From positions 62,001 to 126,000 of the forward strand of contig NZ_FMBC01000006.1 in the NCBI RefSeq assembly GCF_900094795.1: 64,000 nucleotides of DNA, given 5' to 3'. A program made the translations under genes and the position numbers. The DNA comes from Kosakonia oryziphila. GTDB lineage: Bacteria; Pseudomonadota; Gammaproteobacteria; Enterobacterales; Enterobacteriaceae. Position 1 is the first letter of the stretch, and every line of letters begins with the position of its first letter. The notes beneath the pieces were generated by a model. The model was not told where the DNA came from. It searched no databases and saw only the letters and a program-made list of their open reading frames with translations. Shown here in pieces: positions 19,948 through 35,320 of the stretch.

Positions 19948-20454
19948 ATGACTACACCTTCGTTATCTATTGCCAATGAACTGGGGCGGTTGTTAACGGA
20001 AAAGAAGCTGCAACTGGCGACGGCGGAGTCCTGCACCGGCGGGATAATCGCCTCATCGTTGTGTGCGGCGGAAGATACCCCGTCATTCTATGGCAGCGGG
20101 TTTGTAACCTTTACCGACGAAGCCAAGATGATCATGCTTGGTGTCAGTCGTGAAACCCTTACCGCACACACGGCGGTAAGCGAACAGACGGTTATTGAGA
20201 TGGCGGCGGGCGCAGTGCGCCAGTCGCAGGCGCATATCGGTGTTGCGGTCAGCGGCTATGCCGGGCCGGACGGCGGCGAAGATGGCACGCCTGCGGGCAC
20301 GATCTGGTTTGCCTGGCAACTAGCCGACAACAGCGTGCATACCCGGGTGAAACAGTTTACCGGCGACAGCGAAGCGAATATTAAAGAGGCGACCAATTAT
20401 GCCCTCGGCAGATTAATTCGCTTATTAGCCGAATCTGACCAAATGCGGAAATGA
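19948..20454 (+). CDS. CinA-family nicotinamide-nucleotide amidohydrolase (YdeJ/PncC-like)
   Basis: A 168-residue single-domain CinA C-terminal protein. The family core TAESCTGGIIASSL is at ~residues 27-40, GSGFVTFTDEAK follows, and AVSGYAGPDGGEDGTPAGT holds the glycine-rich motif. PncC proteins deamidate NMN in pyridine nucleotide salvage; the E. coli paralogue YdeJ is similar in size but has no proven activity. The ATG at 19948 lies behind GGAGAG; a TTG three bases earlier is less likely. It is probably the last gene of the SDR operon. Confidence 0.8.
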   Translation: MTTPSLSIANELGRLLTEKKLQLATAESCTGGIIASSLCAAEDTPSFYGSGFVTFTDEAKMIMLGVSRETLTAHTAVSEQTVIEMAAGAVRQSQAHIGVAVSGYAGPDGGEDGTPAGTIWFAWQLADNSVHTRVKQFTGDSEANIKEATNYALGRLIRLLAESDQMRK

Positions 20455-20568
20455 GCGCGCTGAAATAAAACAAGCGTAACGAGGAAATAATCTTCCTTGT
20501 GCCGTTTGGTTGTTTTTTGCTTTACCGGGCTATAGTGAAAAGTCTGCGTAAATAATGAGGAGGTAACC

Positions 20569-20646
20569 ATGTTACAGGTTGAAAAAGACGATCCCCATGA
20601 AGCACCGGAATCCGGCGATAAAAAACCCGTTCCGCCCAAAAAATAA
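20569..20646 (+). CDS. 25-residue small protein, unknown function
   Basis: The ATG follows an almost perfect Shine-Dalgarno (GAGGAGGTAACC). The 25-codon frame is highly charged and ends in PVPPKK. A terminator starts 8 bases after the stop, and CTATAGT near 20530, a -10-like element with the upstream C favoured by sigmaS, sits ~35 bases before the SD. This complete small unit makes translation likely. It has no membrane segment or recognised family. Confidence 0.6.
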   Translation: MLQVEKDDPHEAPESGDKKPVPPKK

Positions 20647-20654
20647 CCGTGAAC

Positions 20655-20677
20655 AGGCCACACGCGTGGCCTTTTTT
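20655..20677 (+). terminator. Terminator after the 25-residue gene
   Basis: AGGCCAC (20655-20661) pairs with GTGGCCT (20666-20672) around ACGC, followed by TTTTT. Confidence 0.85.
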
Positions 20678-20736
20678 AACGACATAAGAAAATACCTAAA
20701 TATCTCTGGCTAAGGCAACAATCGCCTGACAATTTG

Positions 20737-20763
20737 GCCGCTATGTTGTAGCGGCTATTTTTA
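20737..20763 (+). terminator. Second plus-strand hairpin terminator
   Basis: GCCGCTA (20737-20743) pairs with TAGCGGC (20749-20755) around a 5-nt loop, then TATTTTTA. It lies 60 bases after the first terminator and 108 bases before the formate dehydrogenase start. It may be a backup terminator or an attenuator. Confidence 0.7.
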
Positions 20764-20792
20764 AACATCATCGATACGTCATGTAAAAACAC

Positions 20793-20841
20793 TCACCGCG
20801 TACAGACGCGGAAGGTGATCTGTTTCCCCGCAGAAGGGAAC
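20793..20841 (+). promoter_or_regulatory. Structured leader before the formate dehydrogenase operon
   Basis: Two consecutive hairpins lie in the ~80 bases before the start: CCGCGT/ACGCGG (20796-20801 with 20806-20811) and TTCCC/GGGAA (20824-20828 with 20836-20840). Outer TCACC/GGTGA bases could extend the first. The enzyme downstream needs molybdopterin, so a cofactor-sensing leader is conceivable, but I could not match it to the Moco riboswitch consensus. Confidence 0.35.
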
Positions 20842-20871
20842 GGACGTAGAGGATGGGTCTGAGGAAGCAAA

Positions 20872-23844
20872 ATGAGCCTGCAAAAATGTACCGTAATTTA
20901 CGACGGCCAGGCCCTTGTTGGCCCGGCGGATATCCCATTGATTGATTTTCTGGATGCCTGCAACAAGACCTTGCCCCATGTCTGCTATCACCCGGCGCTG
21001 GAGCCGCTGCAAACCTGCGATGTCTGTTGGGTGGAACAGGCGGGTAAATTGGTGCGTGGCTGCACGCTGCGCAGCCATGAAGGCCTGGAGATCAACAGCG
21101 CCAACCCGCATGCCAGCGCCGCCCGCGAAGAGGGAATGGATCGCCTGCTGGCGAAACATGAGCTCTACTGCACGGTCTGCGAACATAACACCGGCGACTG
21201 CACGTTGCACAACACTATGGTGGACATGCATCTGCCGATTCAGCGCTATGCGTGGCAGCGTAAACCTTACGTGAAGGACGAATCCAACCCGTTTTACACC
21301 TACGATCCTGATCAGTGCATCCTGTGCGGGCGCTGCGTGGAAGCCTGCCAGAATGTGGAAGTGAACGAAACGCTGAGCATTGATTACACCCAACAACATC
21401 CCCGTGTTTTGTGGGATGGCGGCACGCGGATTGCGGGTTCCAGTTGCGTCAGTTGCGGCCATTGCGTCACGGTTTGCCCCTGTAACGCGCTGCTGGAAAA
21501 AACCATGCAGCCCGATGCCGGGCCGTTTACCTCCATGCCCCAGTCGCTGAAACGCCCGCTAATCGACGTGGTGAAGGCGCTGGAAAATACCATCGGCGCA
21601 GAGATCGTTTCCGGGGTGTCTGTCATCGATACGCAACTGCGCCAGCAGGAGATTAAACGCACCAAAACGGTCTGTACTTACTGCGGCGTGGGATGCAGCT
21701 TTGAGATGTGGACCCGCGACCGTCATCTGCTGAAAGTCCAGCCCGTCACCGACGCGCCCGCCAACGGCATTTCCACCTGCGTGAAGGGGAAATTCGCGTG
21801 GGATTTTATTAACAGCCCGCAGCGGCTGACCACGCCGCTTATCCGCGAAAATGACCGCTTCCGGCCCGCCTCCTGGGAGGAGGCGCTGGATCTGGTCGCT
21901 AAACGGTTGCTGGCGATCCGCGATGAAACGGGGCCGGACAGTATCGGTTTTATTGGTTCCAGCAAAGGCAGTAATGAAGAAGCCTATCTGACGCAAAAAA
22001 TCGCCCGGCTGATTATCGGCACTAATAGCGTCGATAACTCCTCACGTTACTGCCAGAACCCGGCCACTGAAGGGCTGTTTCGCACCGTGGGTTATGGCGG
22101 CGATGCGGGTACTATTGCGGATTTGGCACAGGCGGAGCTGGTGGTGATCGTCGGCAGTAATACCGCAGAAAACCATCCGGTAATTGCCTCACGGCTGAAG
22201 GCCGCGAAAAAACAGCGCGGTCAGCAGTGGCTGGTGGTCGATCCGCGACGCCACGAAATGGCCGAACGCGCCGATCAGCACCTGCGCATTCACCCTGGCA
22301 CCGATCTGGTCTGGGCTTCGGCGATGTCCCGCTACATGTTTGACCACGGTTACGCCGACGAGGCGTTTCTCACTCAGCGCGTTAACAATGTCGAGGCGTA
22401 CCGCCGCTCGCTTGAACCCTTCACCCTCGATTATGCCGCGCAAATTACCGGCATTCAGGAAGCGGATCTGCGCGCGGCGGCGGAGCGGATTGGCCGCGCG
22501 GGCAGCGTCTGCATTATGTGGGCGATGGGGATCACCCAGCACAGCCACGGCGCAGATACCAGCACGGCGCTCTCCAACCTGCTACTGGTGACCGGCAACT
22601 ACGGTCGGCCGGGAACCGGCGGTTATCCGATGCGTGGGCATAACAATGTGCAGGGTGCCAGCGATTTCGGTTGCCTGAAAAATTTCTATCCTGGATATGA
22701 ATCGGTCAGCGATCCGCAGGTGCGCGATAAGTGGGCGCGCGCCTGGGGTGTGGACCCGCAGCGGCTCTCGCTGGAGATAGGCGAAGACAATTTTATGATG
22801 GTCAAACTCGCCAGCAGCGACCAGCTTCGTGCGATGTATGTGATTGGCGAAGAGACGGCTTTTTCCGATGCCGATACCACCAATGTGCATCAGGGGTTTA
22901 GCGAACTGGATTTTCTGGTGGTACAGGATCTGTTTCTCAGCCGTACCGCGCAGTTCGCTGACGTGGTGCTGCCAGGTTGCCCAAGCGTGGAAAAAGAGGG
23001 CTCGTTTGTCAACACTGAGCGGCGCATTCAGCGTTTCTACCCGGTGATGCCACCGCTCGGCGACAGCCGTCCGGACTGGCTGATCCTGACTCAGCTTGCT
23101 GCGCGGATGGGCTTCGACTGGGGATATACCCATCCGGGGCAAATCATGGCCGAGGTGGCAGGCATCGCCGGGAGTTTTGCAGGCGTTAGTTATGAGCGGC
23201 TGGAGGGCTGGAAATCGCAACTCTGGCCGGTGAAGGCGGATGGCAGCAGCACGCCGTTGCTTTATACCGACCAATTCAAAAGCGCGGATGGCCGCGCCAC
23301 GCTCTATCCGGTGAGCTGGCAGCCTCCGGCGGAAGAGGCAGATGCCGACTACGATCTGCTGCTGAATAATGGCCGCATGCTGGAGCATTTTCAGTCCACG
23401 AATCAGAGCGGCAGAGGCGGGCGCACCACCAGCTTATCCCCCGAATGGTATGTCGAAATCAGCCCTGAACTGGCGGCTGGCCGTAACCTGAACACTGGCG
23501 ACTGGGTCAGGCTGAGTTCCCGCCGTGGCGCACTGGAGATCCCGGTGCTGGTCACTGATCGGGTGCAGGGCAAGGTGCTGTTTATCTCGATTCATCAGGG
23601 TAAAGAGGGCATCAATCAGTTGACCGGCGAACATCACGATCCGGCGGTGAATACGCCAGCCTATAAAGAGATCGCCATCCGCCTCGACGCGCTTGACAGA
23701 ACGCCCCATCCCAATCCTTTACCGGAACATAACTTCCGCCACGGTAAGCGTACTCCCATCTCCAGGGTGCCGGTGGAAGAGAAATGGCGTCGTGACGATT
23801 ACCGCGAGCCGCCGGAACATGAACCTCATCCGGAGAAATTTTAA
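20872..23844 (+). CDS. Molybdenum formate dehydrogenase catalytic subunit, ForC/YrhE type
   Basis: A 990-residue protein. The N-terminal 2Fe-2S domain has Cys38, Cys49, Cys52 and Cys64, followed by a Cys/His cluster (HELYCTVCEHNTGDC) and two 4Fe-4S motifs (DQCILCGRCVEAC; SSCVSCGHCVTVCPC). The molybdopterin domain opens with VCTYCGVGCSF. The likely Mo-ligand Cys is in SSRYCQNPATEG, a Cys form rather than selenocysteine. The C-terminal MGD-binding domain runs from about residue 820. This layout matches B. subtilis ForC proteins (YrhE, YjgC), which pair with a DUF1641 partner, as here. It oxidises formate to CO2 in the cytoplasm. It is the first gene of an overlapping four-gene operon; GAGGAAG precedes the ATG. 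Confidence 0.85.
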   Translation: MSLQKCTVIYDGQALVGPADIPLIDFLDACNKTLPHVCYHPALEPLQTCDVCWVEQAGKLVRGCTLRSHEGLEINSANPHASAAREEGMDRLLAKHELYCTVCEHNTGDCTLHNTMVDMHLPIQRYAWQRKPYVKDESNPFYTYDPDQCILCGRCVEACQNVEVNETLSIDYTQQHPRVLWDGGTRIAGSSCVSCGHCVTVCPCNALLEKTMQPDAGPFTSMPQSLKRPLIDVVKALENTIGAEIVSGVSVIDTQLRQQEIKRTKTVCTYCGVGCSFEMWTRDRHLLKVQPVTDAPANGISTCVKGKFAWDFINSPQRLTTPLIRENDRFRPASWEEALDLVAKRLLAIRDETGPDSIGFIGSSKGSNEEAYLTQKIARLIIGTNSVDNSSRYCQNPATEGLFRTVGYGGDAGTIADLAQAELVVIVGSNTAENHPVIASRLKAAKKQRGQQWLVVDPRRHEMAERADQHLRIHPGTDLVWASAMSRYMFDHGYADEAFLTQRVNNVEAYRRSLEPFTLDYAAQITGIQEADLRAAAERIGRAGSVCIMWAMGITQHSHGADTSTALSNLLLVTGNYGRPGTGGYPMRGHNNVQGASDFGCLKNFYPGYESVSDPQVRDKWARAWGVDPQRLSLEIGEDNFMMVKLASSDQLRAMYVIGEETAFSDADTTNVHQGFSELDFLVVQDLFLSRTAQFADVVLPGCPSVEKEGSFVNTERRIQRFYPVMPPLGDSRPDWLILTQLAARMGFDWGYTHPGQIMAEVAGIAGSFAGVSYERLEGWKSQLWPVKADGSSTPLLYTDQFKSADGRATLYPVSWQPPAEEADADYDLLLNNGRMLEHFQSTNQSGRGGRTTSLSPEWYVEISPELAAGRNLNTGDWVRLSSRRGALEIPVLVTDRVQGKVLFISIHQGKEGINQLTGEHHDPAVNTPAYKEIAIRLDALDRTPHPNPLPEHNFRHGKRTPISRVPVEEKWRRDDYREPPEHEPHPEKF

Positions 23845-24323
23845 TGGCGAAATCGATTGAGTATCAGCCGGAACCGGCAAAAATCGGGCCGGACGCCCGA
23901 GAAGAACTGGATCGCCTGCTGGAAACCCTGCACCAGCACGGTGTGCTGCGGTTGCTGAACGATCTGGTCGCGGCGAACAACGAAGTGGCGCAGATCCTCG
24001 TCAACGGCTTGCAGCGGCAGGGCACGCTGAACGCCATTCAGAATATCTCCCTGATGCTGATGGCGCTCTCTTCATTGCCGCCGGATCGCGTCTATAAACT
24101 GGCCTTTGGCCTGCGCGATCTGGCAGAGGCAATAAGCCAGCCAAAAGCCGATGACGAGGAAAAAGCGCCCGGCGTACATGGAGCGTGGAAGATGTTGCAG
24201 GATGACGATCTCTGGCGCGCACTGCGTCCGCTGATCCATGGGCTGGCGGCGTTTTCCCGGCGTATGGAGGAGCCGGTAGACAAGCCGATCTCCGCTTTTA
24301 CCGGTAAGCCCAGCGATGCCTGA
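23844..24323 (+). CDS. DUF1641 protein, ForE-like formate dehydrogenase partner
   Basis: A 159-residue soluble protein. The core LNDLVAANNEVAQILVNGLQ (~residues 38-57) and NISLMLMALSSLPPDRVY are the DUF1641 signature. Its start overlaps the previous stop (TAATG), so translation is coupled. In B. subtilis the DUF1641 partner ForE links the catalytic subunit to menaquinone; that knowledge is from memory of the family. Here it lies between the formate dehydrogenase and a quinol oxidase, which fits the same electron-transfer role. No membrane helix is visible. Confidence 0.78.
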   Translation: MAKSIEYQPEPAKIGPDAREELDRLLETLHQHGVLRLLNDLVAANNEVAQILVNGLQRQGTLNAIQNISLMLMALSSLPPDRVYKLAFGLRDLAEAISQPKADDEEKAPGVHGAWKMLQDDDLWRALRPLIHGLAAFSRRMEEPVDKPISAFTGKPSDA

Positions 24324-25707
24324 TATCAGTCCGGAAACGGCTCTGCTGCTGGCGCGTACGCAATTCGCTTTCACCATCGGCTTCCATATTGTGCTGGCGG
24401 CATTCACTATTGGCCTCGCGCAGTTTCTGATGCTGCTGGAAGGGATGTGGCTTTGGCGCAGGCAGCAGGTCTGGCTCAGCCTGTGGCGCTACTGGAGCAA
24501 AATCTTCGCTCTCAATGTTGCCGTCGGCGTGGTGACTGGCGTGGTGATGGAGTTTGCTTTCGGTACCAACTGGAGCGGGCTGGCGAGCCGGACGGGCGCA
24601 GTGCTCGGGCCGATGCTCTATATGGAAGTGCTGGTGGCGTTCTTCCTTGAAACCGGTTTTATGGGCGTGATGCTGTTCGGCATGGGCAAGGTGCGGCCGT
24701 GGGTCCATCTTATGGCGACCTGCATTGTGGCGCTGGGATCGTTTTTCAGCGCCTTCTGGATCCTCGCGGCGAACTCGTGGATGCAAACACCAGACGGTTT
24801 TGCCATCGGCGCGGATGGCCGTTTTCGCCCCGTGGACTGGTGGGCGGTAATTTTTAACCCGTCGTTTCCGTGGCGGATGGCGCACATGGTAGCGGCCGCG
24901 CTGCTCGGCACCGCCTGTCTGGTCGCAGCCAGTGGCGCATGGCATTTGCTGCGCGATGTGCGTCATCCTGCGGCACGTAAAATGTTCTCTCTCGGTATGT
25001 GGATGCTGGTAGTGATGGCACCGCTGCAAATCGTGCTTGGCGATCTGCATGGCGAAAACACCCGCGATCACCAGCCGGTAAAACTGGCGGCGATGGAAGG
25101 GAGCTGGAATCCGCCGCCGCCGGGTGAAGGCGAGCCGATGCGGCTGTTTGCGCTGCCGGATATGGCCGAACAGCGCAACCATTATGAAGTCGCCATCCCC
25201 GATATCGGTTCACTCTACCTGCGCCATAACCTGAGTGGCACCATTCATAGCCTCAACCAATACCCCACCAACGAACTACCGTGGGTGCCGTTGGTGTTCT
25301 GGTCTTTTCGCCTGATGGTCGGCCTTGGCCTGTTGATGGCCACGGCGGGTATCGCCGGGCTGGTGGTGCGCCTGCGCGGTCGTCTGTGGCGCGCGCGTTG
25401 GTTGCATAAGCTGATGGTGCTGATGGCTCCAGCCGGGTTTATCGCCATGCTGGCGGGGTGGGTGGTAACGGAGGCCGGACGCCAGCCGTGGACGGTATAT
25501 GGCCTGCTGCGCACCGATGAAAGTGCATCGCCGATAGCCCCGGGTTTACTGTTGGGTTCACTGGCGGCTACCGTCACCGTTTATCTGCTGCTGTTCAGCC
25601 TCGGGCTGTGGTTTTTGCTGCGTTTGCTCGCGCACCCGCCGCAGTCGGACGAAGAGAGCGCAATGCCGGAAGTGGCGCAACGTACGGGAAGAGGAGCCGA
25701 TGAATGA
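24316..25707 (+). CDS. cioA: Cytochrome bd-type quinol oxidase subunit I, CIO type (first set)
   Basis: A 463-residue membrane protein, short like cyanide-insensitive oxidases and unlike the ~520-residue E. coli CydA. The N-terminal helix carries a haem-ligand His (FTIGFHIV), the paired acidic site is FFLETGFMG, and GRQPW near residue 395 is the family signature. The Q-loop between the GDLHGENT segment and FWSFRLMVG is short. It starts 8 bases inside the DUF1641 gene. It oxidises quinol and reduces oxygen without proton pumping. Direct operon linkage to a formate dehydrogenase is unusual. Confidence 0.87.
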   Translation: MPDISPETALLLARTQFAFTIGFHIVLAAFTIGLAQFLMLLEGMWLWRRQQVWLSLWRYWSKIFALNVAVGVVTGVVMEFAFGTNWSGLASRTGAVLGPMLYMEVLVAFFLETGFMGVMLFGMGKVRPWVHLMATCIVALGSFFSAFWILAANSWMQTPDGFAIGADGRFRPVDWWAVIFNPSFPWRMAHMVAAALLGTACLVAASGAWHLLRDVRHPAARKMFSLGMWMLVVMAPLQIVLGDLHGENTRDHQPVKLAAMEGSWNPPPPGEGEPMRLFALPDMAEQRNHYEVAIPDIGSLYLRHNLSGTIHSLNQYPTNELPWVPLVFWSFRLMVGLGLLMATAGIAGLVVRLRGRLWRARWLHKLMVLMAPAGFIAMLAGWVVTEAGRQPWTVYGLLRTDESASPIAPGLLLGSLAATVTVYLLLFSLGLWFLLRLLAHPPQSDEESAMPEVAQRTGRGADE

Positions 25708-26687
25708 GTGACGTGTTGGGGTTACCCTGGCTGCAAACACTGTCGGCGGCGGCGCTGGTGCTGAGCGTGTGGATCTACGTGCTGCTTGATGGCACCGATC
25801 TCGGCACCGGTATGCTGTGTGGATTGCAGCGAGATGCCGCTTCCCGCAAGAGGATTAATCTCTCATTGCTGCCGGTGTGGGACGGTAACGAAACCTGGCT
25901 GGTGCTGGCGGCAGGAGGGCTGCTCGGGCTGTTTCCGCTGGCATATGCCATTATTCTCAGCGCGCTGTATGTCCCGGTTTTTGCCATGCTGCTGGCGCTG
26001 GTTGTGCGTGGGATGGCAATTGAGTATCGCCACCACGCCCCGCGCCTGTTCGATACGATGCTGGTGGGCGGCTCGTTACTGGCGAGCCTCGCGCAGGGCA
26101 CTATTGTCGGCTGTCTGATCGAGGGCATTCCGAATGACGGCCAGCAGTTTAACGGCACCGGCGGCGAGTGGTTCAGCCCGTTTCCTCTGTATTGTGCACT
26201 GGCACTGGTGGTTGGTTACTGCCTGATGGGCGCCGGCTGGCTGAACTGGCGCTGCACTGGAGCATTGCAACAGTGGGGCAGACGCGCGATCCCGCCGCTT
26301 GTCGCGCTCGCCGCGTTACTGGTGGCGGGATTACTCTTCTGGACGGGGCAATTACAGGAAACCTGGCGTCGCCATCTGCTGAACCCGTGGCTGTGGCTGC
26401 CGCTACTCAGCGTGGCGGTAATCGCCGCCGCCGGGTTAGGGTTCAGCCTTACGCGGCGCTACGCGTTTATGCCGCTGGCGGCGATCCTCATGCTGGTGAG
26501 CTGCGCGTTGGGCGCGCTGGTGTTTACCCTGTTTCCGTTTATCGTTCCGGTTAATGTGATGATCCACCAGGCGGCCGCGCCGCCAGAAACGCAAAAATTT
26601 CTGCTGATCAGTTTTGCGTTACTGGTGCCCATCACGCTGCTCTATAACAGCTGGGGATTTCGCGTTTTCAGCGGCAAGATTGAGTAA
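25704..26687 (+). CDS. cioB: Cytochrome bd-type quinol oxidase subunit II, CIO type (first set)
   Basis: A 327-residue membrane protein with 8-9 hydrophobic helices. YVLLDGTDLGTGMLCGL and PVWDGNETWLVLAAGGL are the CydB/CioB signatures near the N-terminus. It overlaps subunit I by ATGA, so the two are made together. It forms the heterodimeric oxidase with the preceding product. No DUF2474/CydX-like small subunit follows; only 16 bases separate the stop from the convergent operon. This set therefore lacks the accessory peptide that the second set has. Confidence 0.87.
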   Translation: MSDVLGLPWLQTLSAAALVLSVWIYVLLDGTDLGTGMLCGLQRDAASRKRINLSLLPVWDGNETWLVLAAGGLLGLFPLAYAIILSALYVPVFAMLLALVVRGMAIEYRHHAPRLFDTMLVGGSLLASLAQGTIVGCLIEGIPNDGQQFNGTGGEWFSPFPLYCALALVVGYCLMGAGWLNWRCTGALQQWGRRAIPPLVALAALLVAGLLFWTGQLQETWRRHLLNPWLWLPLLSVAVIAAAGLGFSLTRRYAFMPLAAILMLVSCALGALVFTLFPFIVPVNVMIHQAAAPPETQKFLLISFALLVPITLLYNSWGFRVFSGKIE

Positions 26688-26703: not shown

Positions 26704-26832
26704 TTACGCGCGTAGCCCGGCCATTGACATCAGCAGCCTGAGCACAGAGCTGACGAGAAACAGGGCCAGCACGCTGGCAAACCACAGGCCAACAAACCAC
26801 ATGATTTTCGGTGCGATACGTTTAAATGACAT
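26704..26832 (-). CDS. DUF2474/CydX-like small oxidase subunit
   Basis: A 42-residue single-span peptide: basic N-terminus MSFKRIAPK, then the helix IMWFVGLWFASVLALFLVSS. Its ATG overlaps the TGA of the upstream cioB by one base (TGATG). Position, size and the MWFxGLW motif match the small subunits (DUF2474) linked to CIO-type oxidases. It probably stabilises the haems of the second oxidase. Confidence 0.75.
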   Translation of the reverse strand: MSFKRIAPKIMWFVGLWFASVLALFLVSSVLRLLMSMAGLRA

Positions 26833-27842
26833 CAGTGATACCCCGCACCATGCTGAATTTTCCCGCGAAACACATAGTAGCTCCAGAAGGTATAACCCAG
26901 GATCACCGGAATAATCAGCAGTGCGCCAACCAGCATAAAGCCCTGGCTTTGCGGCGGCGCGGCGGCCTGCCACAGCGTGATATCCGGTGGAATAATATGC
27001 GGCCAGATGCTGATGCCCAGCCCGCTAAAGCCGAGGAAAACCAGCCCCAGCGTCAAAACGAACGGCAAAATATGGTATTGCACGTTGCTCAGCGTATGCC
27101 ATAACCAGACGCTGAAGAGGATCACCAGCAGCGGAACCGGGACAAAGAACCAGATATTTGGCCGACTGAACCAGCGTTCGGCGATCGCCGCATGGGAAAG
27201 CGGCGTCCACAGGCTGATCGCGGCCATCGCCACCAGCAGCGCCAGCAACAGCGTTCTGGCGACAACACGCATTTTCTGTTGCAGGTTTCCTTCACTTTTC
27301 ATCACCAACCAACTGGCGCCCAGCAGGGCATAAGTGATAACCAGCCCAATACCGCAGAACAGGTTAAAGGGTGTCAGCCAGTCGAGCGAACCGCCGCTGA
27401 AGGTACGGCCAGTGACGGCAAAACCGTTGATCACCGCGCCGACCACCATGCCCTGCATAAAGGTCGCCAGCAGCGATCCGGCGAGAAAGGACTTATCCCA
27501 GAATGGTTTGTGATTCGGCGTGGCTTTAAAACGAAACTCAAACGCCACACCGCGAAAAATAAGACCGATCAACATTAATGTCAGCGGGATGGCCAGCGCA
27601 TCCGCGATCACCGCATAAGCGAGAGGAAACGCGCCGAAAAGCCCGGCTCCGCCGAGCACCAACCAGGTTTCGTTGCCATCCCATACCGGCGCGACGCTGT
27701 TCACCATAATGTCTCGTTCGCCGCCATCCTGAATTGCCGGGAAGAGAATACCGATGCCCAGATCGAAGCCGTCCATCACGATATACATCAATGTGGCAAA
27801 GACGATAATGACAAACCAGATAAGCGATAAATCGATGCCCAT
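26832..27842 (-). CDS. cioB: Cytochrome bd-type oxidase subunit II, CIO type (second set)
   Basis: A 336-residue membrane protein with MDGFDLGIGILFPA and APVWDGNETWLVLGGAG near the start. It lies between subunit I (TAATG overlap) and the DUF2474 peptide (TGATG overlap), so three genes are translationally coupled. It resembles the first set in fold but the sequences differ widely, so this is not a recent duplication. It forms the oxygen-reducing quinol oxidase with subunit I in the inner membrane. Confidence 0.88.
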   Translation of the reverse strand: MGIDLSLIWFVIIVFATLMYIVMDGFDLGIGILFPAIQDGGERDIMVNSVAPVWDGNETWLVLGGAGLFGAFPLAYAVIADALAIPLTLMLIGLIFRGVAFEFRFKATPNHKPFWDKSFLAGSLLATFMQGMVVGAVINGFAVTGRTFSGGSLDWLTPFNLFCGIGLVITYALLGASWLVMKSEGNLQQKMRVVARTLLLALLVAMAAISLWTPLSHAAIAERWFSRPNIWFFVPVPLLVILFSVWLWHTLSNVQYHILPFVLTLGLVFLGFSGLGISIWPHIIPPDITLWQAAAPPQSQGFMLVGALLIIPVILGYTFWSYYVFRGKIQHGAGYH

Positions 27843-29242
27843 TATTTTTTCTCCTCCGCCTGCAAACGTTCACCCGCCGCGGAGAGCGGGCGCGTCGGTC
27901 TGCCGTCTGTTGCGTGTTCATCCCAGGGCTGCGGCCCTCTCTTAATCAACCGCACCATATAGCTGTAACCGACGCCGAAGACCGAGGTGTACACCACGAT
28001 AAAGGCCAGCAGACTCAGGCTCATCTGTAAGGTGCTGTGCAAGGAAACCGCATCTGCCGTGCGCAGCAGCCCGTAGACAACCCAGGGTTGTCGCCCGACT
28101 TCGGTGGTCACCCAACCGGCAAGAATGGCAATCAACCCCACCGGGCCCATCCACAGTGCGAAGTACAGGAAGGGACGCGATTCATACAGCCGGTGGCGAA
28201 AACGCAACCACAAAGCGGCAACACCGAGCGCAATCATCAATAGCCCCATACCTACCATCAGACGGAATGACCAAAAGACAATGGTGGAGTTGGGCCGATC
28301 CGCTTTCGGAAAATCTTTCAGCGCTGGCACTTGTTCGTGCAGCGAGTGGGTGAGGATCAGACTACCAAGCGAAGGGATTTCCACTGCGTATCGGGTGCGT
28401 TCTTGTTCCATATCCGGCAAGCCAAACAGCAACAACGGCGTGGCTTCGCCGGGCGGATTTTCCCAGTGCCCTTCAATGGCGGCGATCTTCGCTGGCTGAT
28501 GTTTCAGGGTGTTCAGGCCATGCATATCGCCAATAAACGCCTGGAGCGGCGCGACGGCCAGCGCCATCCACATCGCCATTGACAACATTTTGCGGATTGC
28601 GGGTGTGTCATTGCGGTGCAGCAAGTGCCAGGCGGCGGAAGCGCCGACGAAGAGGGCGGTGCTGAGGAAAGCGGCAATGGTCATATGCAGTAAACGGTAT
28701 GGGAACGAAGGGTTAAAAATGACCGCAAACCAGTCGACAGGGATCACCTGACCATTTTCAATGGCGAACCCTTGCGGCGTATGCATCCAGCTATTGGAGG
28801 CAAGGATCCAGAAAGTGGACATCAGCGTGCCCAGCGCCACCATGCAGGTAGCGAAAAAGTGCAGACCCGGCCCCACCTTATTCCAGCCAAACAACATCAC
28901 GCCGAGAAAACCCGCCTCAAGGAAGAAAGCGGTCAGCACCTCGTAGGTGAGTAATGGCCCGGTAATACTGCCAGCAAACTGGGAGAAGCCGCTCCAGTTC
29001 GTACCGAACTGATAAGCCATCACCAGCCCGGAAACCACACCCATGCCGAAGTTGACGGCAAAGATCTTCAGCCAGAAGTGATACATCGCGCGCCAGTCGG
29101 GATTTTTGGTTTTCAGCCATAACCCTTCAAGCACCACCAGATAGCTGGCAAGCCCGATAGTGATGGCGGGAAAAATAATGTGAAACGAGACCGTAAAGGC
29201 GAACTGAAGCCTTGCCAGATGGAATGCATCGAACTCAAACAT
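27842..29242 (-). CDS. cioA: Cytochrome bd-type oxidase subunit I, CIO type (second set)
   Basis: A 466-residue protein with a short Q-loop, as in cyanide-insensitive oxidases. FAFTVSFHIIFPA holds an N-terminal haem-ligand His, FFLEAGFLGVM the acidic pair region, and EVGRQPWVVYGLLRT the C-terminal signature. It is the first gene of the minus-strand cioA-cioB-DUF2474 operon. A 205-bp repeat begins 37 bases upstream of its start, so the promoter is either within those 37 bases or inside or beyond the repeat. Residue-level similarity to the first subunit I is moderate. Confidence 0.88.
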   Translation of the reverse strand: MFEFDAFHLARLQFAFTVSFHIIFPAITIGLASYLVVLEGLWLKTKNPDWRAMYHFWLKIFAVNFGMGVVSGLVMAYQFGTNWSGFSQFAGSITGPLLTYEVLTAFFLEAGFLGVMLFGWNKVGPGLHFFATCMVALGTLMSTFWILASNSWMHTPQGFAIENGQVIPVDWFAVIFNPSFPYRLLHMTIAAFLSTALFVGASAAWHLLHRNDTPAIRKMLSMAMWMALAVAPLQAFIGDMHGLNTLKHQPAKIAAIEGHWENPPGEATPLLLFGLPDMEQERTRYAVEIPSLGSLILTHSLHEQVPALKDFPKADRPNSTIVFWSFRLMVGMGLLMIALGVAALWLRFRHRLYESRPFLYFALWMGPVGLIAILAGWVTTEVGRQPWVVYGLLRTADAVSLHSTLQMSLSLLAFIVVYTSVFGVGYSYMVRLIKRGPQPWDEHATDGRPTRPLSAAGERLQAEEKK

Positions 29243-32929: not shown

Positions 32930-35320
32930 CTATTCCGGCGCAGCGTCGCTGCCTTGCTGTGACGGCCATTTCCAGTTCTGCACTTCCGGCAGATCTTCAC
33001 CGTATTCGCGGACGTAACGATGGTGGGCTGCGATTTTCTCCTGCAACAGATCAAGGATCTCGTCCGCTTTACCTTGCAGCGACGGCACGCGTAATATCGC
33101 TTCCTGCGCCAGATGAAAGCGATCCAGTTCGTTCAGTACCGTCATATCAAACGGCGTGGTTGTAGTGCCTTCCTCCATAAAACCGCGTACGTGAAAGTTG
33201 CGGTGGTTGTTGCGCAGGTAGGTCAAACGGTGGATCAAACTGGGGTAGCCGTGGAAGGCGAAAACGACCGGCTTATCGGCGGTGAAAAGGGCGTCAAACG
33301 CCTCTTCGCTCAGGCCGTGCGGGTGTTGATCGCTGGTCTGTAAAGCCATTAAATCAACCACGTTCACTACCTGAATACGTAACGCTGGCAGGAATTCACG
33401 CAGCAGATCGACCGCCGCGAGTGTCTCCATGGTGGGTACGTCACCGGCACAGGCCATCACCACATCCGGCGTTTCACCTTCCTCAACCGTGCCAGCCCAG
33501 TACCAAATCCCCATTCCGTCCGCACAGTGCTTAGCTGCGCCATCAAGCGTTAGCCATTGTGGCTCAGGCTGTTTCCCGGCGACGATCACATTGATGCGAT
33601 CCCAGGTTTTCAGGCAGTGATCCGCCACGCAAAGCAGCGTGTTGGCATCTGGCGGCAGATAAATGCGCACAATATCGGCTTTCTTGTTGGCAACGTGATC
33701 GATAAAGCCAGGATCCTGATGGCTATAGCCGTTGTGATCCTGGCGCCAGACATGGGACGAGAGCAGGTAATTCAGCGAGGAGATGGGCGCCCGCCACGGC
33801 AATTTTCGGGACACTTTCAGCCACTTGGCATGCTGGTTAAACATCGAATCGACAATATGAATAAAAGCTTCATAGCAATTAAACAGGCCGTGCCGCCCGG
33901 TGAGCAGATACCCTTCCAGCCAGCCCTGACATTGATGTTCGCTGAGAATCTCCATCACCCGACCATCGGGCGCGAGCTGTTCATCCCACGGTTTTTGCGC
34001 CGCCTGCCACGTGCGGCTGGTCACATCAAACACTTTACTCAGACGATTAGATGCCGTTTCATCGGGGCCAAAAAGGCGGAAGTTATCTGCATTTTCCCGG
34101 AAAATGCCTGCCAGATATGCGCCAAGTGCCGCAGTGGATTCCGCCTGGGATTCACCGGGAGATGTCACCTCCACGGCGTAAGGTTGCAGTGCCGGTGTTA
34201 TCAGTTCGCGGCGTAAACGGCCGCCGTTCGCCCATGGCGAAGCGCCCATGCGTTTATCACCGTTGGGTGCCAGCGCGCGCAATTCCGCCTTTAACTGACC
34301 GTTTTCATCAAAGAGATCCTCCGGCTGGTAGCTTTGCATCCAATGTTGCAGGATCTGGCGATGTTCGTCGTTTTCCCGGCATGAAGAAACCGGCACCTGG
34401 TGTGCGCGCCAGAAATCTTCCACCTTTTTGCCGTCCACCGTTTGCGGGCCAGTCCAGCCTTTGGGGCTGCGTAACAAAATGATCGGTCAACGCGGTAAAC
34501 GCTCTGCTGTCTGATGGTTGCGCGCCTGCTGCTGAAAATTCGCAATGTGGTCAAGGGCGTTATCCAGCGCCTGTGCCATATCGCGATGCATTTGTTCCGG
34601 CTCATGGCCGCTAACCAGCAGGGGTTCATACCCGTAGCCGCGAAACAGTTGAAACAGATCGTCATCGCTGGCGCGCCCAAGGATGGTCGGGTTAGCAATC
34701 TTGTAACCATTAAGATGCAAAATCGGTAGTACTGCGCCGTCGCGCACGGCATTGAGGAATTTAATCCCATGCCAGCTTGAGGCCAGCGGGCCGGTTTCCG
34801 CTTCACCATCGCCAATCACGCAGGCGGCAATCAGCGACGGGTTATCAAATACTGCGCCGAACGCATGTGCCAGCGAGTAACCCAGTTCGCCGCCTTCATT
34901 AATGGAACCGGGCGTTTCCGGCGCGGCGTGGCTGGGGATCCCGCCGGGAAAAGAGAACTGACGGAACAATTTTTTCATCCCCTGAGCATCCTGGCTCACC
35001 TGCGGATAAATGTCGCTGTAGGAGCCTTCAAGCCAGGTATTCGCCACCATGCCTGGACCGCCATGCCCTGGGCCGCAGATATAGATCATATCGAGATCGC
35101 GCTGGCGTATAACGCGGTTGAGATGGGCATAAATAAAGTTAAGACCCGGCGTGGTCCCCCAATGTCCCAGCAGGCGCGGCTTGATGTGCTCCGGCTTGAG
35201 GGGTTCGCGCAGTAAAGGGTTATCCATCAGGTAAATTTGTCCAACGGAGAGGTAATTAGCGGCCCGCCAGTAGCGATCGATCAATTTAATGTCATGGTCA
35301 GAAAGGGAAGATGCCGTCAT
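32930..35320 (-). pseudogene. xfp: Phosphoketolase, interrupted by one in-frame TGA
   Basis: A full-length (796-codon) xylulose-5-phosphate/fructose-6-phosphate phosphoketolase frame. The N-terminal part (277 codons) carries [17 protein letters not shown] and the TPP motif [11 protein letters not shown]. Codon 278 is TGA (34487-34489), where the family has Trp (RxRWP). The frame then continues without shift through [10 protein letters not shown] to the C-terminus. One G-to-A change explains it. The enzyme cleaves sugar phosphates to acetyl phosphate. The rest shows no decay, so the lesion is recent, an assembly error, or read through (TGA is followed by C, a leaky context). The start is preceded by AGGAG. 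Confidence 0.85.

Follow-up and report, generated by a model that had tools for sequence, protein, structure and literature searches.

In Escherichia coli, hydrogenase 1 and cytochrome bd-II form a pair of a special dehydrogenase with a special bd oxidase; they are encoded by two operons, hya and app, the electron donor is hydrogen, and the dehydrogenase is a membrane-bound enzyme. Both operons respond to a common activator, AppY (PMC10057817). The formate dehydrogenases FdnGHI and FdoGHI transfer electrons from formate to quinone, and Fdh-N faces the periplasm and has iron-sulphur (Fe-S) and membrane subunits (PMC13397495). ForCE1 and ForCE2 of Bacillus subtilis (YjgCD and YrhED) are encoded by two-gene operons, and the pairing of CQ with RGH in the active site defines the ForC group to which they belong (176 sequences, mainly from Firmicutes), with a DUF1641 gene adjoining in the vast majority of members; the ForC1-ForE1 complex oxidises formate, uses menaquinone and has no membrane subunits (PMC8808070). 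According to a 2026 review, ForE passes electrons to the quinone pool, and the hetero-octameric complex has lipid-filled cavities where ForC meets ForE (PMC13397495). Here we describe an operon within a stretch of 64,000 nucleotides from contig NZ_FMBC01000006.1 of the plant-associated bacterium Kosakonia oryziphila (the window; all positions count from its first letter) that joins a ForCE-type formate dehydrogenase to a cytochrome bd-type oxidase of the cyanide-insensitive oxidase (CIO) type, and that probably encodes, judging from its gene families, a dedicated cytoplasmic respiratory chain from formate through quinone to oxygen. The operon resembles the B. subtilis systems in its ForC, CQ/RGH pairing, Fe-S motifs, ForE homologue and lack of a membrane cytochrome subunit, and differs from them by the joined terminal oxidase. 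It further differs from hya/app in being a single overlapping operon with a predicted soluble formate enzyme, and from FdnGHI/FdoGHI in containing none of their Fe-S or membrane subunits. Its four genes are as follows.

20872..23844, forward strand: forC-like catalytic subunit of formate dehydrogenase, 990 residues
23844..24323, forward strand: forE-like partner (remote DUF1641), 159 residues, no cofactor motif seen
24316..25707, forward strand: cioA-like cytochrome bd subunit I with a short Q-loop
25704..26687, forward strand: cioB-like cytochrome bd subunit II

The open reading frames (ORFs) agree with the original prediction of a four-gene operon at 20872-26687 on the forward strand, and the junction DNA carries the predicted TAATG (1-base overlap), 8-base overlap and ATGA (4-base overlap). 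In 50 of 55 loci forC and forE likewise overlap by 1 base, and forE overlaps cioA in 23 of 31 (by exactly 8 bases in 15), where start codons were taken as the Met nearest the start of the window's protein, a rule biased towards the window; the public annotations of Pantoea piersonii and Rahnella aquatilis have the identical 8-base overlap. Since the overlaps recur across loci, the tight packing of the operon is not due to chance. The accompanying claim that the proteins are made in fixed proportion is too firm, since the gene overlaps no more than suggest it. The source genome measures 4.81 Mb; among the named relatives found, Kosakonia arachidis Ah-143 is the nearest (97% identity in ForC).

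The assignment of the dehydrogenase to the ForCE type is well founded. ForC contains a [2Fe-2S] domain, a His-Cys3 4Fe4S domain, two more 4Fe4S domains, a molybdopterin Fe4S4 domain and a domain for molybdenum bis-pyranopterin guanine dinucleotide (Mo-bis-PGD). Its best match by sequence among solved structures is YjgC/ForC1 of B. subtilis (PDB 8rqz, 1197 bits), and residues 7-980 align with YjgC 6-973, including the N-terminal Fe-S extension, that is, the two proteins are homologous end to end. The active-site strings RYCQNP (at 392) and MRGHNN (at 587) place C394-Q395 and R588-G589-H590 as in the B. subtilis group, and the match of the partner protein to ForE1 (below) agrees with this. It could be argued that ForC is a related molybdenum enzyme with another substrate, given that Gln (CQ) replaces the usual His (CH) beside the catalytic Cys. 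We regard this as very improbable: B. subtilis ForC, with the identical CQ/RGH pairing, oxidises formate (PMC8808070), and ForC passes the formate dehydrogenase alpha-subunit model TIGR01591 (793 bits against a cut-off of 666), and none of the remaining models in the list (25 of 48) reaches its own cut-off. Inspection of the ForC N-terminus by eye shows no twin-arginine signal, so the enzyme is likely cytoplasmic. The genome also contains fdhD, which encodes a sulfurtransferase required by formate dehydrogenases.

ForE is more diverged, and the DUF1641 label that it had been given is only partly upheld. Unlike B. subtilis ForE, the Kosakonia protein is too diverged for the Pfam DUF1641 model: Pfam returned nothing at 0.001 and two weak, unrelated matches at 10, and the DUF1641 cut-off was missed. 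Nonetheless, PF07849 matches a single place in the whole genome, which lies inside forE (E 1.35; 12 bits against a cut-off of 21), and the top PDB match is ForE1/YjgD both for the single protein (phmmer E 6.9e-4) and for a profile of 13 relatives (E 2.7e-11). We therefore keep the label, as homology to ForE rather than as a Pfam assignment.

The oxidase half was correctly predicted to be of the CIO type, as family scores, conserved bd residues and the short Q-loop all indicate. CioA (PF01654, 514 bits) and CioB (PF02322, 239 bits) score above their cut-offs, CioA aligns to the E. coli bd structures, CioB matches other bd subunits II, and E. coli CydA 292-366 is faced by only about 10 residues of CioA. 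CioA retains the GRQPW motif and H24, E104, E112, H190, K256, E261, M334 and E386, which we take to be the counterparts of CydA H19, E99, E107, H186, K252, E257, M393 and E445, with their haem, proton and quinol roles. A genome-wide search found four bd-type oxidases: this contig carries two, contig C47 carries one, and contig C73 carries one of the long form.

Because the gene families imply each step, the operon can be read as a complete chain. ForC would oxidise formate in the cytoplasm at the Mo-bis-PGD centre, as its homology suggests, and electrons would run along its five Fe-S clusters; by analogy with B. subtilis, ForE together with ForC would form the quinone site and the membrane contact, which would put quinone reduction on the cytoplasmic side. 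Quinol would then be oxidised at the periplasmic side by CioAB, which would reduce oxygen to water. The net outcome would be that formate is removed and cytoplasmic protons and oxygen are consumed, with proton-motive force generated by the oxidase alone. We infer that electrons flow from ForCE to CioAB in particular. The quinone of the B. subtilis system is menaquinone. To our knowledge, Pseudomonas and Trinickia make only ubiquinone, and since ForCE occurs in both, ubiquinone is a likely acceptor in this ForCE branch.

The oxidase of the operon belongs to a separate branch of CioA. An initial tree (108 CioA proteins) gathered all 31 forCE-linked proteins in one clade together with one unlinked member; with Pseudomonadaceae added, the clade comprises 43 rows, 32 forCE-linked and 11 not, with support of 100/100 (nine distant long-branch rows used in an intermediate tree are left out of this final tree). 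Linkage to forCE switches at least four times on the CioA tree. An ordinary CIO lies next to the operon, downstream:

26832-29242, strand opposite to the operon: ordinary bd-type (CIO) pair
26704-26832, reverse strand: DUF2474 small gene, 42 residues, single helix, directly after the ordinary cydB

The two oxidases share subunits I and II, the short Q-loop and the haem, proton-path and quinol residues. Compared with the window's ordinary CIO and others, the clade has 17 diagnostic positions (one residue in at least 90% of the clade and the same residue in at most 10% elsewhere), nine of which lie within 240-308, surrounding the quinol residues K256 and E261 (clustering p 2e-4, for a region chosen after seeing the list). 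The clade also differs in its neighbours: a DUF2474 gene, the product of which may be a CydX-like third subunit of CIOs, adjoins 28 of 36 ordinary CIO loci and none of 39 clade-only loci. Three of the 36 are repeat views of one place, and the model was seeded from six places, leaving about 19/27 independent; among the 39, L247 and L044 probably represent the same place, and L058 has only about 120 bases after cioB. Adjacency of DUF2474 is used here as a feature observed in ordinary CIO loci. The product of 26704-26832 is possibly the third subunit of the neighbouring ordinary oxidase, and the clade oxidase may possibly have its small subunit elsewhere or from another family. At one Chimaeribacter locus, a hydrophobic ORF of 48 codons, unrelated to DUF2474, lies downstream. 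It is tempting to speculate that ForCE docks on the clade oxidase with local hand-over of quinol, as a formate-oxidase supercomplex. We consider this unlikely; if true, the changes in the quinol loop and the absence of an adjacent DUF2474 gene would be signs that this group of oxidases has become adapted to a partner of its own.

How common is the joined unit? Its distribution in enterobacteria is patchy: a ForE match was found in 10 of 149 species of an enterobacterial family sample, the sole other sampled species of the window's genus being without one. Of the nine other enterobacterial neighbourhoods, eight have cioA and cioB after forE (one is frameshifted, and one, in genome G096, has an interrupted cioB), and the ninth stops at a contig edge. 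The interrupted cioB (L020:9139-10497) consists of two matching pieces separated by about 600 bases instead of the expected 175 or so. A class sample (n=369) matched four further genomes, all with forC-forE and without cio. A search of named genomes gave 61 loci: forC-forE followed by cioA in 27 (two cut by a contig end and at least two frameshifted); forC-forE with no adjacent cio in 20 (11 outside Enterobacterales and nine within, of which one is cut shortly after forE); forC with no forE found by the window's protein in 11 (Acidobacteria, Staphylococcus, Paenibacillus and others), in three of which a diverged forE was later found; and three others, which were cut, weak or deleted. Kosakonia quasisacchari (L090:4767-5627) is among these three; in it, ForC residues 1-156 are joined directly to CioB residues 192-326, apparently a single deletion across the unit, from forC to cioB, that removed most of the operon. 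Plasmid records of P. piersonii and R. aquatilis carry all four genes, the second annotated as "DUF1641 domain-containing protein" and the clade oxidase labelled simply as cytochrome ubiquinol oxidase subunits.

Coupling of forCE to the oxidase is frequent rather than obligate. That is, the predicted coupling is common in enterobacteria (8/9 neighbourhoods) but fails as a general rule, given the bare forCE loci outside Enterobacterales, the separated oxidases and the Pseudomonadaceae (below). We searched for oxidases in 20 genomes in which forCE lacks an adjacent cio or is cut. Six have the clade oxidase elsewhere (two Chimaeribacter and four of the Pantoea agglomerans group), ten have oxidases outside the clade, two have no match at E 1e-60, and two have only broken copies (Pantoea stewartii with 0/10 readable clade residues and Halomonas with 2/6). 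In all, three Chimaeribacter and four P. agglomerans-group genomes carry the clade oxidase apart from forCE, with both in the same genome. The original prediction had held that an oxidase lying elsewhere in relatives would speak against coupling; this situation does occur in part, but the separated enterobacterial oxidases still belong to the same clade and their genomes keep forCE. On an unrooted ForC tree of 56 chosen rows, the enterobacterial groups resemble those of the oxidase, the bare-forCE Halomonadaceae and Stutzerimonas/Halopseudomonas fall outside, and Trinickia (also bare) falls among the linked pseudomonads. Because bare-forCE groups lie outside, the simplest order of events would be the addition of the oxidase to an older forCE pair.

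The two halves are associated in enterobacterial genomes irrespective of adjacency. CioA matches at E 1e-120 occur in 56 of 148 family-sample genomes. All nine genomes placed by tree as having the clade oxidase also match ForE; ForE matches one more genome, a frameshifted assembly in which pieces of cioA come after forE. This co-occurrence was assessed without correction for relatedness among the genomes. In the 26 genomes left unplaced by the trees, the best matches carry 0-1 of the 17 clade residues, as do eight further oxidase copies (34 stretches scored; for reference, the 43 clade rows score 14-17 and 90 other rows 0-6, the residues having been selected on the 43 clade rows and 40 of those 90). 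ForC and CioA distances are correlated (r 0.89, n=37 genomes, leaving out the linked locus L080 with its short ForC; none of 2000 permutations as high), also between decoupled and linked genomes (r 0.85). In the class, phylum and family samples the clade oxidase appeared to be linked exclusively to forCE, a view that was dropped after the Pseudomonadaceae were included.

Several observations weigh against a dedicated chain. Among 178 Pseudomonadaceae, 18 have ForE and seven the clade oxidase, with three having both (Fisher p 0.02, in a test that counts related genomes as independent); four of the seven have no ForE match, and 15 of the 18 have no clade oxidase as judged by the score gap (the seven score at least 600 bits and carry clade residues, the next best scores 498, the next five carry none, and the remainder were judged by score). 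The clade oxidase is thus tied closely to forCE in enterobacteria and loosely in pseudomonads. None of the 11 bare-forCE loci outside Enterobacterales has cio beside forE, and their genomes have oxidases outside the clade in nine cases, none that passed in one, and the broken Halomonas copy in the last. The correlation of ForC with CioA was computed without control for the species tree, and the two proteins share their nearest linked relative in none of the seven decoupled genomes. An AlphaFold model of ForE (43 rows) is too poor for use (mean pLDDT, the predicted local distance difference test, 52). Finally, quinol from ForCE could equally be oxidised by any of the three further bd-type oxidases in the genome.

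Alternatively, the two halves might share regulation rather than electrons, with ForCE feeding the common quinone pool and the oxidase acting as a general stress CIO, placed under the same promoter because the two are of use in one and the same stress. The three additional oxidases fit this view, as do the frequency of ForE without the oxidase, the clade oxidases of two of the four ForE-lacking Pseudomonadaceae genomes, which adjoin a Mn catalase gene (L245:9896-10801 and L246:5245-6120), and the separate Chimaeribacter oxidase, which adjoins yciE, katN, yciF and an alcohol dehydrogenase gene. However, the clade oxidase is distinct in its quinol loop and has no DUF2474 neighbour, and in the enterobacterial sample it was never seen without ForE in the genome. 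We consider shared regulation a real possibility, with somewhat less than an even chance of being right, and favour the dedicated chain. The Mn catalase neighbours of clade oxidases without ForE hint at a wider stress association; in the window, a Mn catalase gene and two DUF892 genes lie beyond the ordinary bd pair.

As for the role of the operon, forCE1 of B. subtilis is under general-stress SigB control (PMC8808070), RpoS promotes katN expression in enterohaemorrhagic E. coli (PMC5363993), and for both halves several loci have stress genes as neighbours. On these grounds, by analogy, removal or detoxification of formate together with respiration under stress appears to be the most likely role. 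A more specific proposal, which we consider quite unlikely, is a cyanide-and-formate module, in which plant cyanide is converted through formamide to formate, ForCE clears the formate, and the cyanide-insensitive oxidase sustains respiration. The oxidase is indeed CIO-type by sequence, breakdown of cyanide through formamidase and formate dehydrogenase has been discussed in Pseudomonas pseudoalcaligenes (PMC6368324), and many of the 30 plasmid records listed have plant sources according to their source lines; however, another CIO already adjoins the operon.

It is important to note that both halves belong to known families, and that what is new is the joined unit and the distinct oxidase branch. 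Consistent with the original prediction, among the papers listed in one open-access library (without subscription papers or preprints) we found, in titles, abstracts and passages, no description of forCE joined to a bd oxidase, and passages of papers on Azotobacter, P. pseudoalcaligenes, a Pantoea integrative and conjugative element, and Parageobacillus do not describe the combination. If the proposed chain is correct, enterobacteria gain a second, cytoplasmic formate respiration with oxygen that takes four structural genes and dispenses with membrane subunits of the dehydrogenase. Further, the operon offers a Gram-negative, genetically tractable setting for studying how a soluble ForE-type enzyme reaches quinone, lets the dedication of a bd oxidase to one dehydrogenase be tested, and splits off an oxidase branch from those annotated generically.

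Alignment of 10 upstream regions revealed a candidate promoter or operator:

20740..20871, forward strand: upstream stretch with a block conserved in relatives (GCTATTTTTAAAC...GATACGTCA)

No sigma-70-like site was found upstream of forC within 20400-20871. A sigma-S -10 pattern has 51 matches in the window against 64 expected, which is chance level and provides no evidence for RpoS control. In P. stewartii, a "putative formate dehydrogenase oxidoreductase", which may or may not be forC, is listed as strongly repressed by RcsA (PMC4689408). Between cinA and forC, 20570-20647 on the forward strand is a possible ORF of 25 codons after a purine-rich stretch resembling a ribosome site, and a terminator-like hairpin follows it. 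A formaldehyde dehydrogenase upstream of forC was rejected, the protein being a zinc alcohol dehydrogenase that scores 194 against that model's cut-off of 637. Further away, a phosphoketolase-like reading at 32930-35320 on the reverse strand may be split: an N-terminal XFP piece of 277 residues stops inside the domain and is followed on the same strand by a frame of 515 residues, likely reflecting a frameshift or an assembly error.

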